A stretch of 34,677 nucleotides of DNA from positions 1 to 34,677 of the forward strand of contig CACWNQ010000021.1 in NCBI GenBank assembly GCA_902762385.1, read 5' to 3'. The notes beneath the pieces are model-generated. The model was not told the DNA's origin, searched no databases, and saw only the letters and a program-made list of their open reading frames with translations. Position numbers and translations under genes: made by a program. Positions 27,673 to 31,333 of the stretch are shown here, piece by piece. The stretch's first letter is position 1; each line of letters starts with the position of its first letter. The stretch is from an uncultured Bacteroidales bacterium. Its GTDB lineage: Bacteria > Bacteroidota > Bacteroidia > Bacteroidales > Muribaculaceae.

Positions 27673-29025
27673 TTATCCTTGTCCTTGGCTCTTGGGAGTG
27701 ACGCCGGGGCGCGGTGCAGTAATATGAAGATCTCTTGCAAATACTGTATTTCCCATATCTTCGTTCACCGTCACCAGCTCCACTCGTCCATCACAGATGG
27801 CGATGTTGCACACTTCCATCGCATAAACATCATCTGGCAGCATCAAAATGCCGCGCACACGACCGTTCTGATCACATATCTGAATGCCCGCATCGGTTAC
27901 TACCCACAAGTTGCCAGCTCCGTCAAATGCTATACACGAAATATAAGGATACGAGTTGCCATAGCTATGCAACCAGTAGAAATATTGCTTGTTTTGCCAC
28001 TCGCCATTATCAGCCTTAGTATACTGCACAAGACTATTATTCTTGTCTGCGACAACCATCAAAGTGCTGTCGGGGTAATAAACCATATGGGTGAAAGTGA
28101 ATGATTGAGTAGCATTATATCCATCCACCTTGGAAACTATCTTCCACTCGCTGTCGGCCACTAACATGGTGTCGAGCAGGTTGTTCTGCGTCTTGCCACA
28201 CTTAGGCGCTTCGGGCCAGCCTTGCCACATCCATTCCATGACTTCGGGGAAGATCTCGTTGGCGCGCTTCACGCCATGGTAGCAGTCGCTCCAGTCGTAA
28301 CGGGCGTCATAGCCAGCGAAGTCGAGTGCCGAGGCGAGCATGCGGTTACCCTCGTACCAGTGGCCGAACAATGGGTTCCACACATCGTTGGTGCCGTCTT
28401 GCAAGAAGATGCGCAAGGGGCGAGGCTCACTTTTTCGGACTATCGCCTGGAGGTCGTTGCCTCCACGCATCGCCACAAAGGTGCCCACACCGCTGAAAAC
28501 CCGACTGAACATGTCAGGGCGGTGCCAAGCCGCCGTGAACGCTGCTATTCCGCCACTGCTCAGTCCAAATATCATGGCGTCGGCCCCACGATGCGAGATT
28601 TTAACAGGGAGCCCACGGGCTGTGGTGAGGCTCTCCACCCAGGGCAGCACCTCGTCATTAATGAAGGAAGCAAACGTGGCAGTGGTCATGTCGAACTCGT
28701 TGCTGCGGTTGTAGCGCAGCACATTACCATCCTTGTCCTTTATGACACCAGGCTGCACGAATACGCCAATGGTCACTGGCATTTTGCCGGCAGTGATGAG
28801 ACTGTCCATCACATGTGGGGCGTTGCAAAGTATTCCATCGAGCCCTACATAGAGGCACGCAGGTTGCTTGCCGTCGTAGGCATCGGGCACGTAGACCTGA
28901 ATTTCACGCTCTGTGCCAGGATAGTGCCACTTGGCCTTGAGAGAGCCTTTTATTATTTCATGTGCGCTAGCATTTAAACACAAGGCAGAAAAAAGCAGAG
29001 TAATGATTAGGAAACGATGCTTCAT
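27673..29025 (-). CDS. Secreted esterase with C-terminal propeller-like domain
   Basis: A 450-residue protein with signal peptide (about 1-21). Residues about 25-270 form a CE1/Fes-like alpha/beta-hydrolase. The nucleophile elbow is GLSSGG (Ser156), an acidic residue lies in QDGTNDVWN (Asp210 or Asp214), and the histidine is His250 in CYHGVKRANEIFPEVM. Such esterases act on acyl or feruloyl groups of polysaccharides or on siderophores. Residues about 290-440 have repeated strand turns (FTHMVYYPDSTLMVVAD, ISCIAFDGAGNLWVVTD), similar to SMP-30/gluconolactonase-like propellers. It follows the radical SAM gene by 19 bases and is probably co-transcribed with it. Whether it belongs functionally to the lipoprotein modification system is unknown. 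Confidence 0.88.
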   Translation of the reverse strand: MKHRFLIITLLFSALCLNASAHEIIKGSLKAKWHYPGTEREIQVYVPDAYDGKQPACLYVGLDGILCNAPHVMDSLITAGKMPVTIGVFVQPGVIKDKDGNVLRYNRSNEFDMTTATFASFINDEVLPWVESLTTARGLPVKISHRGADAMIFGLSSGGIAAFTAAWHRPDMFSRVFSGVGTFVAMRGGNDLQAIVRKSEPRPLRIFLQDGTNDVWNPLFGHWYEGNRMLASALDFAGYDARYDWSDCYHGVKRANEIFPEVMEWMWQGWPEAPKCGKTQNNLLDTMLVADSEWKIVSKVDGYNATQSFTFTHMVYYPDSTLMVVADKNNSLVQYTKADNGEWQNKQYFYWLHSYGNSYPYISCIAFDGAGNLWVVTDAGIQICDQNGRVRGILMLPDDVYAMEVCNIAICDGRVELVTVNEDMGNTVFARDLHITAPRPGVTPKSQGQG

Positions 29026-29044: not shown

Positions 29045-30109
29045 TCATTTTTGGGCAGCACAAATTGTAAGATAATTGCAGTGGAGCATCTCCCCGTCAT
29101 CGCCACGAAGGTGGAAAGGCCCACCAGCGCACCAGTCCCACGCTTTGCAGCGAGCACATTCATCACGTTTCATCCAGCGGCGGTTGCGCATTACCTCAAA
29201 TCGGTTTTGCCACACATCGCTGAAGCGATCATGATAAATATTGCCTTGAGCATAGTGCGCACGGATGCTCATGCAACCACTGATGTCGCCGTTGGCCAGC
29301 ACCGAGGCAGTCATGATTCCGGCATCGCAGCGATACATGTGTTTTCTCACAATGCCCTCATAGTCGCCCAAAAATCCCTCGCAGCTGTACGACAGATTGA
29401 TATCGCCCTTGTTGCGTGTGTCGGCAATAAACTCCATTAATGCCACATATTGCTCAGGCGACAGGAAAAGTTCGGGATTAAGCTTTGCGCGGCCTTGAGG
29501 GAAGATGGTGAAAATGCGCCATTTCTTCACCCCTGAATCAATGAGGAATTGCTTGAGCTGAGGCAAAGTCGAGAAGTTGCGCTGATTAACGCAAGTAATG
29601 ACATCCCACAGCAGATTGCGGGTGCGTGTGAGAAGGCCAATTGCGTTAATAGCGCCGTCGAACGAGTTGCCTCGCAGCCAGTTGTGCTCAGTTTCCAAAC
29701 CATCCAGGCTAATCGCCACCGTGCGAAGGCCTGCCTCCAAGATGTCATGGAGCAGAGACTCGGTAAGCAACACGCCATTTGTCACGAATCCCCACATAAA
29801 GCCACGCTCGGTAATTGCTTTGCCACAATCGACAATATCAGGTCGTACCAATGGTTCACCACCAACGGTGTTGACCAGCACACGGCGAGGATCGGTCATA
29901 GTTGCCACATCGTCGAGCACTGGAAGAAAATCATCGAGTGGCATATCGGGTTGTGTCGCAATCTTGCGACAGTCACTGCCACAATGCCTGCACGACAAGT
30001 TGCAACGCAACGTACATTCCCAAAACAGCTGTCGCAATGGGTGTTTCTTCTCGAGCTCTCGGCGCTCACGTCGCGTTTTTTCAAGAGCTATAAGCTGGCG
30101 AGTAGTCAT
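29045..30109 (-). CDS. Radical SAM/SPASM enzyme paired with lipoproteins
   Basis: A 354-residue cytoplasmic enzyme. The radical SAM cluster motif is CNLSCRHC, with Cys36, Cys40 and Cys43, and GGEP lies at 83-86. A SPASM-type auxiliary-cluster region is at the C-terminus, with cysteines at 261, 279, 318, 321, 327, 344 and 350 (CARCKAWDWC core). SPASM enzymes commonly modify ribosomal peptides, for example by crosslinks or epimerisation. The start codon overlaps the stop of the upstream lipoprotein gene by one base (TGATG), so expression is coupled to its probable substrate. I recall related rSAM/lipoprotein pairs in Bacteroidota (TIGR04133 with TIGR04134). The reaction is not known to me. The esterase gene follows after 19 bases. 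Confidence 0.92.
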   Translation of the reverse strand: MTTRQLIALEKTRRERRELEKKHPLRQLFWECTLRCNLSCRHCGSDCRKIATQPDMPLDDFLPVLDDVATMTDPRRVLVNTVGGEPLVRPDIVDCGKAITERGFMWGFVTNGVLLTESLLHDILEAGLRTVAISLDGLETEHNWLRGNSFDGAINAIGLLTRTRNLLWDVITCVNQRNFSTLPQLKQFLIDSGVKKWRIFTIFPQGRAKLNPELFLSPEQYVALMEFIADTRNKGDINLSYSCEGFLGDYEGIVRKHMYRCDAGIMTASVLANGDISGCMSIRAHYAQGNIYHDRFSDVWQNRFEVMRNRRWMKRDECARCKAWDWCAGGPFHLRGDDGEMLHCNYLTICAAQK

Positions 30110-30429
30110 CAGTTGCCTTTATTTTTTGCATTATTTCGCTTTACCTCATTGGGCACAGGCACAGTGTCGAGCATATCGGCAGGAGGACCATATACAACCT
30201 CGACCATTTCGGGATCAATCGTTGAGTCAATATCCTCGATGGGAGGTCCATAAACGTCTTCTACCACTTCCACTTCGGTAGAATCCTCCATCTCGGGTGG
30301 TGGACCATACACAGTCTCGTAAGGCGAGCTACAGCCACTAGAACCGCATGTCGAGAATCCCAGCATAGTACCTATAGCTACTAAGGCTCGTGCTGTCCAT
30401 TTTTTTATATGAAAAAACGTCTTATTCAT
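30109..30429 (-). CDS. Small VYGPP-repeat lipoprotein, likely radical SAM substrate (copy A)
   Basis: A 106-residue protein with a positively charged start (HIKKWTARA) and a hydrophobic segment ending in a lipobox-like FSTC (Cys28), so it is predicted to be exported and lipidated. The mature part carries three VYGPP motifs at residues 40-44, 59-63 and 79-83, about 20 residues apart and separated by acidic spacers rich in Glu, Asp and Pro. A short basic tail (KRNNAKNKGN) follows. The region before Cys28 closely matches copy B, including the identical KKWTARA. The ATG at 30429 (MNK) is chosen over an upstream TTG because copy B also starts MNK. The radical SAM gene begins on the last base of its stop codon. 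Confidence 0.85.
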   Translation of the reverse strand: MNKTFFHIKKWTARALVAIGTMLGFSTCGSSGCSSPYETVYGPPPEMEDSTEVEVVEDVYGPPIEDIDSTIDPEMVEVVYGPPADMLDTVPVPNEVKRNNAKNKGN

Positions 30430-30453
30430 AAGGTCCAATTATTTGGTGGGAAT

Positions 30454-30717
30454 TTAGTTTTCTTTTTCGTGCTTCAGAAGCGTTGCTTTCGATTGCTGAC
30501 CAACCGAATCGATTGCTATTTCCTCGACGGGAGGACCATAAACATCCTCAACAGCCTCAACTTTATTTTGGCTATAATTGGGTGGAGGGCCATAAACGCC
30601 AGCTGCAGGATTTGGGCCATTCTTTATCGTAGAACAAGCCGAAATCCCCAGTAATGCACCCAATGCAACAGCTGCCCTTGCAGTCCATTTCTTAACAGCA
30701 AAACTCACTTTATTCAT
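30454..30717 (-). CDS. Small VYGPP-repeat lipoprotein, likely radical SAM substrate (copy B)
   Basis: An 87-residue paralog of the next gene. The N-terminal segment (VKKWTARA, then a hydrophobic run) ends in the lipobox GISAC with Cys28 at the same position. Two VYGPP motifs lie at 41-45 and 59-63. The second is set in the same context as in copy A (VEDVYGPP followed by V/I-E and an acidic residue). The tail is Lys/Glu-rich. It is first in the operon, 24 bases before copy A's ATG, and has a promoter at 30757-30788. The ATG at 30717 is preferred to a TTG at 30723. Function is unknown. The paired enzyme implies it is modified at or near the YGPP sites. Confidence 0.83.
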   Translation of the reverse strand: MNKVSFAVKKWTARAAVALGALLGISACSTIKNGPNPAAGVYGPPPNYSQNKVEAVEDVYGPPVEEIAIDSVGQQSKATLLKHEKEN

Positions 30718-30756: not shown

Positions 30757-30788
30757 CAAATTTACAACATTTCTAGCTCACATGCAAA
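30757..30788 (-). promoter_or_regulatory. Promoter of the VYGPP lipoprotein-radical SAM operon
   Basis: On the - strand TTTG (complement of 30785-30788) and TAAATTTG (complement of 30757-30764) are 20 bases apart, a good Bacteroidota promoter about 40 bases before the first lipoprotein gene. It is back to back with a + strand -7 element at 30807-30814. Confidence 0.65.
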
Positions 30789-31012: not shown

Positions 31013-31333
31013 ATGGCAAGCAATCAGGACTTTGTTCAGTATGTTGCCGACCAGTGCTCTGGTGCCGGTGATATAATCACCAAGAAAATGTTTGGCGACT
31101 ATGCCATCTATTGTGATGGCAAGATTTTTGGCCTTATATGTGATGATTGTTTATATTTGAAGCCAACCGAGGCTGTCAAACCCTTGCTACGAGAAATAGA
31201 CATGTGTCCTCCATATGAAGGGGCAAAAGCTTATTATCGCATAATCGACGTTGACGACCACGACTATCTGGCCTTGCTTGTTAGTGAAACATGCAAAGCC
31301 TTGCCCGAGCCAAAGCTCAAGAAGAAGAAATAA
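31013..31333 (+). CDS. TfoX N-terminal domain protein
   Basis: A 106-residue soluble protein consisting of one TfoX_N domain. It shows the conserved start (QDFVQYVADQ), KKMFGDYAIYCDGKIFGLICDD at about 24-45 and LYLKPTEA near 47-54. In gamma-proteobacteria TfoX/Sxy regulates competence, but stand-alone TfoX_N proteins in Bacteroidota have no established role. The C-terminal domain of full-length TfoX is absent, and the protein ends in a basic KLKKKK tail. It follows the small membrane protein gene by 14 bases. Confidence 0.9.
   Translation: MASNQDFVQYVADQCSGAGDIITKKMFGDYAIYCDGKIFGLICDDCLYLKPTEAVKPLLREIDMCPPYEGAKAYYRIIDVDDHDYLALLVSETCKALPEPKLKKKK

Follow-up and report, generated by a model that had tools for sequence, protein, structure and literature searches.

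A TIGR04133 radical SAM/SPASM enzyme paired with Tyr-Gly lipoproteins in an uncultured Muribaculaceae bacterium: a candidate backbone-splicing system

Few known protein modifications are as odd as backbone splicing by radical SAM enzymes, which has been studied chiefly in RiPP clusters. Published work describes PlpX(Y) as splicing X-Y-G, with MYG and LYG as natural sites (PMC10533398), and PlpX as a member of IPR026482 (PMC11002830) that was studied together with its partner PlpY (PMC10533398, PMC11002830). According to such work one precursor can undergo several splicing events and a short tag is enough inside other proteins, many splice-tag positions in FtsZ having failed (PMC10533398, PMC10373908, PMC11002830), and spliceotide products are protease inhibitors (PMC11117315). 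Another SPASM enzyme, MftC, acts on Tyr next to Val (PMC8326336), an arrangement recalling the VYGPP motif treated below; unlike the system described here, it carries out a decarboxylation and a cross-link on a small peptide.

The pairing of a radical SAM enzyme with a lipoprotein is already catalogued by NCBI as TIGR04133 (rSAM_w_lipo) and TIGR04134 (lipo_with_rSAM, radical SAM-associated putative lipoprotein), model names that state no chemistry. No paper naming either family was found in the literature searched. The 2022 splicease survey of Scott et al., whose title reportedly speaks of widespread ribosomal beta-amino acid peptides and proteins, lies outside that search; it may already include both families and is the main limit on a claim of novelty. 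We take IPR026482 to be TIGR04103, which would make TIGR04103 the family of PlpX.

The locus and its two lipoproteins

The window, by which we mean the whole 34,677-nucleotide stretch analysed here, carries on its minus strand, in order of transcription, the genes for lipoprotein B, lipoprotein A, the enzyme and an esterase-like protein (Table 1). Base 30109 is common to the stop of lipoprotein A and the ATG of the enzyme, confirming the one-base overlap with a radical SAM/SPASM gene that an earlier note on this DNA had described, and translation upheld its account of two small paralogs that share Cys28 and repeat VYGPP.

Table 1. Features of the locus, with positions in the window.
Feature	Position	Strand	Description
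Esterase-like protein, exported	27673..29025	-	Pfam Esterase E 1.9e-13; 19 bases 3' of enzyme gene
Enzyme gene	29045..30109	-	Radical SAM/SPASM, TIGR04133 family, 354 aa; candidate splicease-like Tyr-Gly modifying enzyme
Lipoprotein A	30109..30429	-	106 aa; lipobox Cys28; VYGPP starting at residues 40, 59 and 79; candidate substrate
Lipoprotein B	30454..30717	-	87 aa; lipobox Cys28; VYGPP at residues 41 and 59; candidate substrate
Promoter-like site TTTG-N20-TAAATTTG	30757..30788	-	Upstream of lipoprotein B; Bacteroidota-style pattern
TfoX N-terminal domain protein	31013..31333	+	Divergent from lipoprotein genes

The promoter-like site follows the Bacteroidota-style consensus and is only suggestive, because the window holds two such patterns against 1.01 expected from shuffles. 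The esterase-like gene is possibly co-transcribed with the enzyme; in one relative, a 71% identical gene adjoins YGPP lipoproteins, the enzyme being elsewhere in the genome. In several relatives (L064-L066, L082, L126, L162) the TfoX N-terminal gene has likewise stayed close to lipoprotein genes. Relatives of the locus come from assemblies labelled Muribaculaceae, Bacteroidales, Prevotellaceae or Porphyromonadaceae, many of them from rumen.

By pattern and hydropathy, the hydrophobic stretches of A and B are followed by the lipoboxes ISAC and FSTC, ending at Cys28. The earlier note had called these lipoproteins surface-type; acidic residues following the lipobox Cys form the surface-export signal of lipoproteins, and since none occurs among the five positions after this Cys in A or B, that label is not supported. 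Neither protein matches an NCBIfam family at E up to 1, and hence no known RiPP leader family, and Pfam returned nothing but a sub-threshold EpuA match for A.

The Val codons of the five VYGPP sites are GTG, GTT, GTA, GTT and GTT, and the Pro codons vary too. This use of differing synonymous codons indicates that the motif has been kept as protein sequence, and a recent DNA duplication is ruled out as the origin of the repeats. A degenerate DNA pattern for YGPP matches the whole genome eight times, five of them within the two lipoprotein genes; the reversed control gives seven matches, so that it is the clustering alone, and not the total, that is unusual. In an alignment (A1) of 26 of the 27 collected window-type copies (L042:1138-1455 was left out), the full invariant set is M1, K10, R14, G20, G24, C28, Y41, G42 and P43. 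The linker, by contrast with Cys28, Tyr41, Gly42 and Pro43, is variable. In one further copy, L161:2564-2908, the usual lipobox position is not a Cys and VYGPPP is kept; a Cys in a lipobox-like setting lies eight residues before that position.

Partner proteins across the enzyme family

We compared 45 TIGR04133 loci: the window (L001), a set of 20 (L002-L004, L033-L049), 21 from assemblies (L062-L082) and 3 from plasmid records (L083-L085), among which one species may in some cases be represented twice. L005, a repeat of L002, was dropped, and loci from the genus co-occurrence search (see below) were excluded. At 44 of the 45 loci the gene cluster encodes, on the same strand as the enzyme, a protein with an X-Tyr-Gly (XYG) site, and at 43 the site has the stricter form YG-x(0-3)-P, L079 having the looser form only. 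The directly adjacent ORF, as called, is the XYG protein in 40 cases; in L044 and L077 this protein is one ORF away, in L036 and L073 it was identified in the cluster by inspection and not by the automated chain, and in the enzyme's gene cluster of L062 there is none. Among 186 control ORFs (the other ORFs of 60-300 aa on both strands of the 42 non-plasmid loci, real or not), 52 contain YG and 10 contain YG-x(0-3)-P, counts of single ORFs, some of them not genes, whereas 44/45 and 43/45 are counts of loci.

The 67 partners that we collected were hand-picked, partly for YG, which makes the frequency of YG among them circular and the per-locus counts the fairer measure. Sixty-three of them contain 108 YG-x(0-3)-P sites in all, with one to three XYG sites per partner. 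The residue X before YG is V at 59 sites, M at 15, K at 9, L at 8, E at 5, R at 5 and others at 7, and Pro is found at +2 from Tyr (taken as 0) in 68 and at +3 in 87. This composition rules out VYGPP as a fixed unit, which is how the earlier note had treated it: M, L, K, E, R and other residues take the place of V, the Pro position shifts, and L046 has YAPP and YAGP beside one YGGP. Nor is lipidation essential or a surface lipoprotein the constant feature, as 26 of the 67 partners have no lipobox by pattern, including the tail-anchored ones of L036 and L037 and that of L043, which is without a hydrophobic segment.

The partners comprise repeat lipoproteins of the window type and others that contain a CarboxypepD_reg-like domain, exported proteins whose end is formed by an ACP-like PF00550 or a TonB C-terminal PF03544 domain, long acidic proteins in which a hydrophobic stretch lies at the N-terminus, the tail-anchored proteins of L036 and L037, and the soluble-type L043. 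The recurrence of YG across such otherwise unlike proteins, at 44 of 45 loci, bears out the linked pair of enzyme and YGPP proteins proposed earlier; that the enzyme and the YG sites belong together is well supported.

Some loci have features of their own. A second TIGR04133 paralog (L002 1501-3157, G000:C12; also L038-L041 and L044) is followed by exported XYG proteins with an ACP-like end, the PF00550 match being found in L002, the first copy of L039 and L041, and a DS(L/I) serine motif in these three and L044 (not in L038, L040 or the second copy of L039). In L076-L080 the XYG sites lie in exported proteins, of which the two tested (L079, L080) end in the TonB C-terminal domain; an N-terminal stretch that they share, TAAEVVAIDG...FDELYAMQ, might be a recognition sequence. 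In the partner L085:3562-3951, on a Treponema saccharophilum plasmid, the lipobox Cys is itself the X of a C-Y-G site.

An enzyme match at E 1e-60 or better is present in 39 of 61 genomes of the genus, and the subtype of the window enzyme (at least 72% identity) in 20. The identical 20 carry window-type lipoproteins, with a best E per genome of 2.7e-15 or lower; the 41 genomes without the subtype have no strong lipoprotein match, two of them giving weak ones (E 4.2e-5 and 6.0e-4) that were counted as misses. The earlier note had named YGPP lipoproteins commonly found without the enzyme as evidence against the link; these 61 genomes do not show that pattern. The Fisher p for this co-occurrence, 1.6e-16, ignores shared ancestry. 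Among 149 genomes of the same family, the lipoprotein model matched 6, all of the genus, plus four marginal cases (E 2e-4 to 8e-4) within frames of 561-627 aa. Unlinked extra copies of the lipoproteins also occur, with strong matches in enzyme-bearing genomes only (of the 61). One of the 20 genomes (G551, the source of L062) has the enzyme standing alone and six lipoprotein matches on three other contigs, from which it follows that substrates can be in trans. Two of these copies adjoin homologues of esterase and efflux genes that the window also has, two lie near an OPT oligopeptide transporter, and two adjoin a TfoX_N gene, as in the window. In two genomes, a membrane transporter gene stands directly beside unlinked YGPP lipoproteins (L161:578-2557 and L164:3329-5305); it belongs to the OPT family by Pfam in the former and is alike by sequence in the latter.

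The enzyme and its relatives

With 497.2 bits against a cut-off of 425 and with Radical_SAM and SPASM domains in Pfam, the window enzyme is a TIGR04133 member and of the kind that the earlier note had recognized. The family exceeds its cut-off in 3 of 395 Bacteroidota genomes and in 18 of 149 genomes of the same family, and is well delimited, the scores falling from 458.6 bits for its members to 181.2 for the next radical SAM proteins among the matches listed. A second paralog, 56% identical to the window enzyme, is encoded elsewhere in the same genome. In the 45 aligned members, C243, C261, C279, C318, C321, C327 and C344 are kept throughout, and C36, C40 and C43 in 44, one row being N-truncated. 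Cys243 is an extra invariant cysteine. These 45 members lack the final Cys of the canonical CX2CX5CX3C, and no alignment column between CX2CX5C and C344 holds 10 or more Cys. Among solved structures, searched by sequence, there are 9 relatives of a general radical SAM kind, the best being 7vob (E 9e-13).

Like PlpX, the window enzyme is a SPASM radical SAM protein with an XYG partner (five VYG sites) and several sites per protein. It differs in scoring 121.6 bits with TIGR04103, far below the cut-off of 725 and level with the NirJ2 model (120.6); for a Treponema member TIGR04053 and three other models, and for a Parabacteroides member TIGR04053 and two others, outscore TIGR04103. Further differences are the missing last Cys of CX2CX5CX3C, kept in the PlpX-family row, the invariant Cys243, and substrates that have signal peptides or membrane anchors in place of the Nif11/NHLP leaders. 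No counterpart of PlpY, or RRE protein, was noticed in the ORF lists inspected for the neighbourhoods. At a Nostoc plasmid locus with a TIGR04103 enzyme (853 bits), whose splicease role is predicted, the Nif11 precursor ends in ALYGLPPELF; the window has TVYGPPPEM.

A phylogenetic analysis placed TIGR04133, TIGR04103, TIGR03913 and a few related enzymes on one branch with support of 100/99 once long branches had been removed. NirJ, NirJ2-like, MftC, an MftC-like row, TIGR04053 and TIGR04347 fall outside it; the branch covers no comparison with X_Indio2, PqqE, R_L061 (DynA-like), R_L051 (ACGX) or X_Indio1, which were dropped from this tree together with the N-truncated T4133_L036. In the first tree, with very long branches included, support was 92/90 and the PqqE, ACGX-like and DynA-like rows were also excluded. 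A narrow clade of TIGR04133, TIGR04103, TIGR03913 and L091 was not recovered (lnL 10.4 lower when forced, p-AU 0.094), and the trees, which contain one TIGR04103 sequence only, show neither a narrow sister relation of TIGR04133 and PlpX nor a firm branching order within the 100/99 branch. The TIGR04133 stem is long, at 2.5 changes per column. The motif G-x-x-G-x-Y-E before the SPASM cysteines, a further likeness to a TIGR04103 member besides the shared wider clade, occurs in the TIGR04103 row, in 5 of 5 TIGR03913-type rows and in 18 of 20 TIGR04133 rows (L034 and L035 lack this form), and in none of the 19 other rows of the 45-row tree.

Other members of the wider clade vary in their partners. 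The TIGR03913 GDL-motif maturases resemble our family in having partner peptides upstream of the enzyme, of which 6 of 11 contain X-Y-G (LYGG, PYGP, PYGV, PYGA, AYGA, LYGV), but these are small DUF1843 peptides without a membrane anchor and the remaining 5 have YA or YM. In an Agathobacter relative, an unannotated upstream frame ends in PVMYGTGVRM. The enzymes of L007-L010 and L014 have a conserved partner of ~99 aa (LDPSVVMYLVI...) without YG, and L006, L015 and L091 have no clear XYG substrate at the locus. Because some clade enzymes have partners without XYG, membership of the clade alone does not fix the chemistry. On the Tropicibacter plasmid of L091 (1206-4982), the PlpX-like enzyme adjoins a phosphotransferase of the APH family that has FYGLPPG close to its start, and the neighbourhood also holds a gene annotated as trypsin-like peptidase.

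The catalogued TIGR04134 proteins carry YG sites as well. The partner in Parabacteroides distasonis (207.1 bits) has CEYGSP and that in Treponema saccharophilum (43.7 bits) CYGMP, both adjoining a TIGR04133 enzyme. The window lipoproteins differ from them in repeating VYGPP and in matching no NCBIfam model, the P. distasonis partner having CarboxypepD_reg-like domains. A TIGR04134 search of the window's genome gave no matches, nor did its controls.

Candidate chemistry and possible roles

Taken together, the gene pairings and motifs make it very probable in our judgement that a modification takes place at the YG sites. For its nature, on which the earlier note was silent, we give about an even chance to a splicing reaction at the XYG sites of these proteins. 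The TIGR04133 enzyme would excise tyramine (C8H9NO) from the backbone at X-Tyr-Gly, in the cytoplasm and before export, after which lipoproteins A and B, with three and two sites, would undergo export and lipid anchoring and carry electrophilic ketoamides in their flexible tails. We infer the modification itself, this chemistry, its order and any biological role from the genes. Splicing predicts a calculated mass loss of 135.068 Da per XYG site (PMC10533398 gives -135.0757), or at most 405.2 Da for A and 270.1 Da for B.

The recurrence of Tyr and Gly as a pair favours splicing because the pair is the splicease signature, yet a different SPASM chemistry on Tyr or its neighbours, yielding a mature group in envelope proteins, is a real if doubtful possibility. 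It could be a cross-link from Tyr, a Tyr decarboxylation such as MftC performs beside Val, or another change, and the same pairing and motifs speak for it. TIGR04133 has its own auxiliary-cluster Cys pattern and a long stem, so the chemistry may have moved away from splicing, and the frequent Pro at +2 (68 of 108) and +3 (87 of 108) lies outside the XYG rule. Besides the Tyr-Gly signature, such a chemistry has against it that MftC and NirJ lie outside the 100/99 branch and PqqE outside the 92/90 one, and that DynA, at 59 bits, is the only member of the darobactin/dynobactin cross-linking group among the best 25 of 67 NCBIfam matches.

We regard it as unlikely that the enzyme makes a small molecule or acts on some other protein, with the YG proteins binding it or sharing its pathway. 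The NirJ2 and AhbD models, small-molecule SPASM relatives, do score about like TIGR04103, modification is here a prediction from the genes, and YG could be a docking site; but the unlike partner classes share little other than X-Y-G with a nearby Pro and have one to three sites each, and unlinked extra copies of the lipoproteins gave strong matches only in those of the 61 genomes that bear the enzyme. Mere coincidence, with unrelated lipoprotein genes for proline-rich tails beside a radical SAM gene, could appeal to YG being common (52 of 186 control ORFs). It is highly improbable and already contradicted by the counts at loci (44/45), in the genus (20/20 vs 0/41) and in the 26 lipoproteins with invariant Y41-G42-P43.

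Were splicing the reaction, its products suggest several roles. A ketoamide that follows Val, Met or Leu is a warhead often met in inhibitors, and as candidate roles we infer that the modified proteins might display an inhibitor binding proteases covalently and reversibly, act as a tether that proteases do not cut, or offer a point for covalent attachment; the beta-residue might protect the flexible tail from proteases. The tail-anchored partners of L036 and L037 have a basic stretch before the membrane segment, so by the positive-inside rule their sites would stay cytoplasmic, and inhibition of outside proteases therefore cannot explain all cases.

More broadly, and with rather less than even confidence, we propose a general protein-modification system in which one cytoplasmic splicease-like enzyme would rewrite the backbone at X-Tyr-Gly tags, in part acting in trans, in dispersed envelope proteins (lipoproteins, TonB-like, ACP-like exported and tail-anchored proteins). 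If this is true, the envelope of gut Bacteroidota itself contains alpha-keto-beta-amino acids. The finding supplies a mass prediction per site and cultured relatives for testing it. If the TIGR04133/lipoprotein pairs are spliceases, the envelope proteins of gut genera like Parabacteroides and Phocaeicola, in which members were found, would bear electrophilic ketoamides whose part in inhibiting proteases or resisting them could be tested, and the pairs would be a possible source of new short splice tags for protein labelling.
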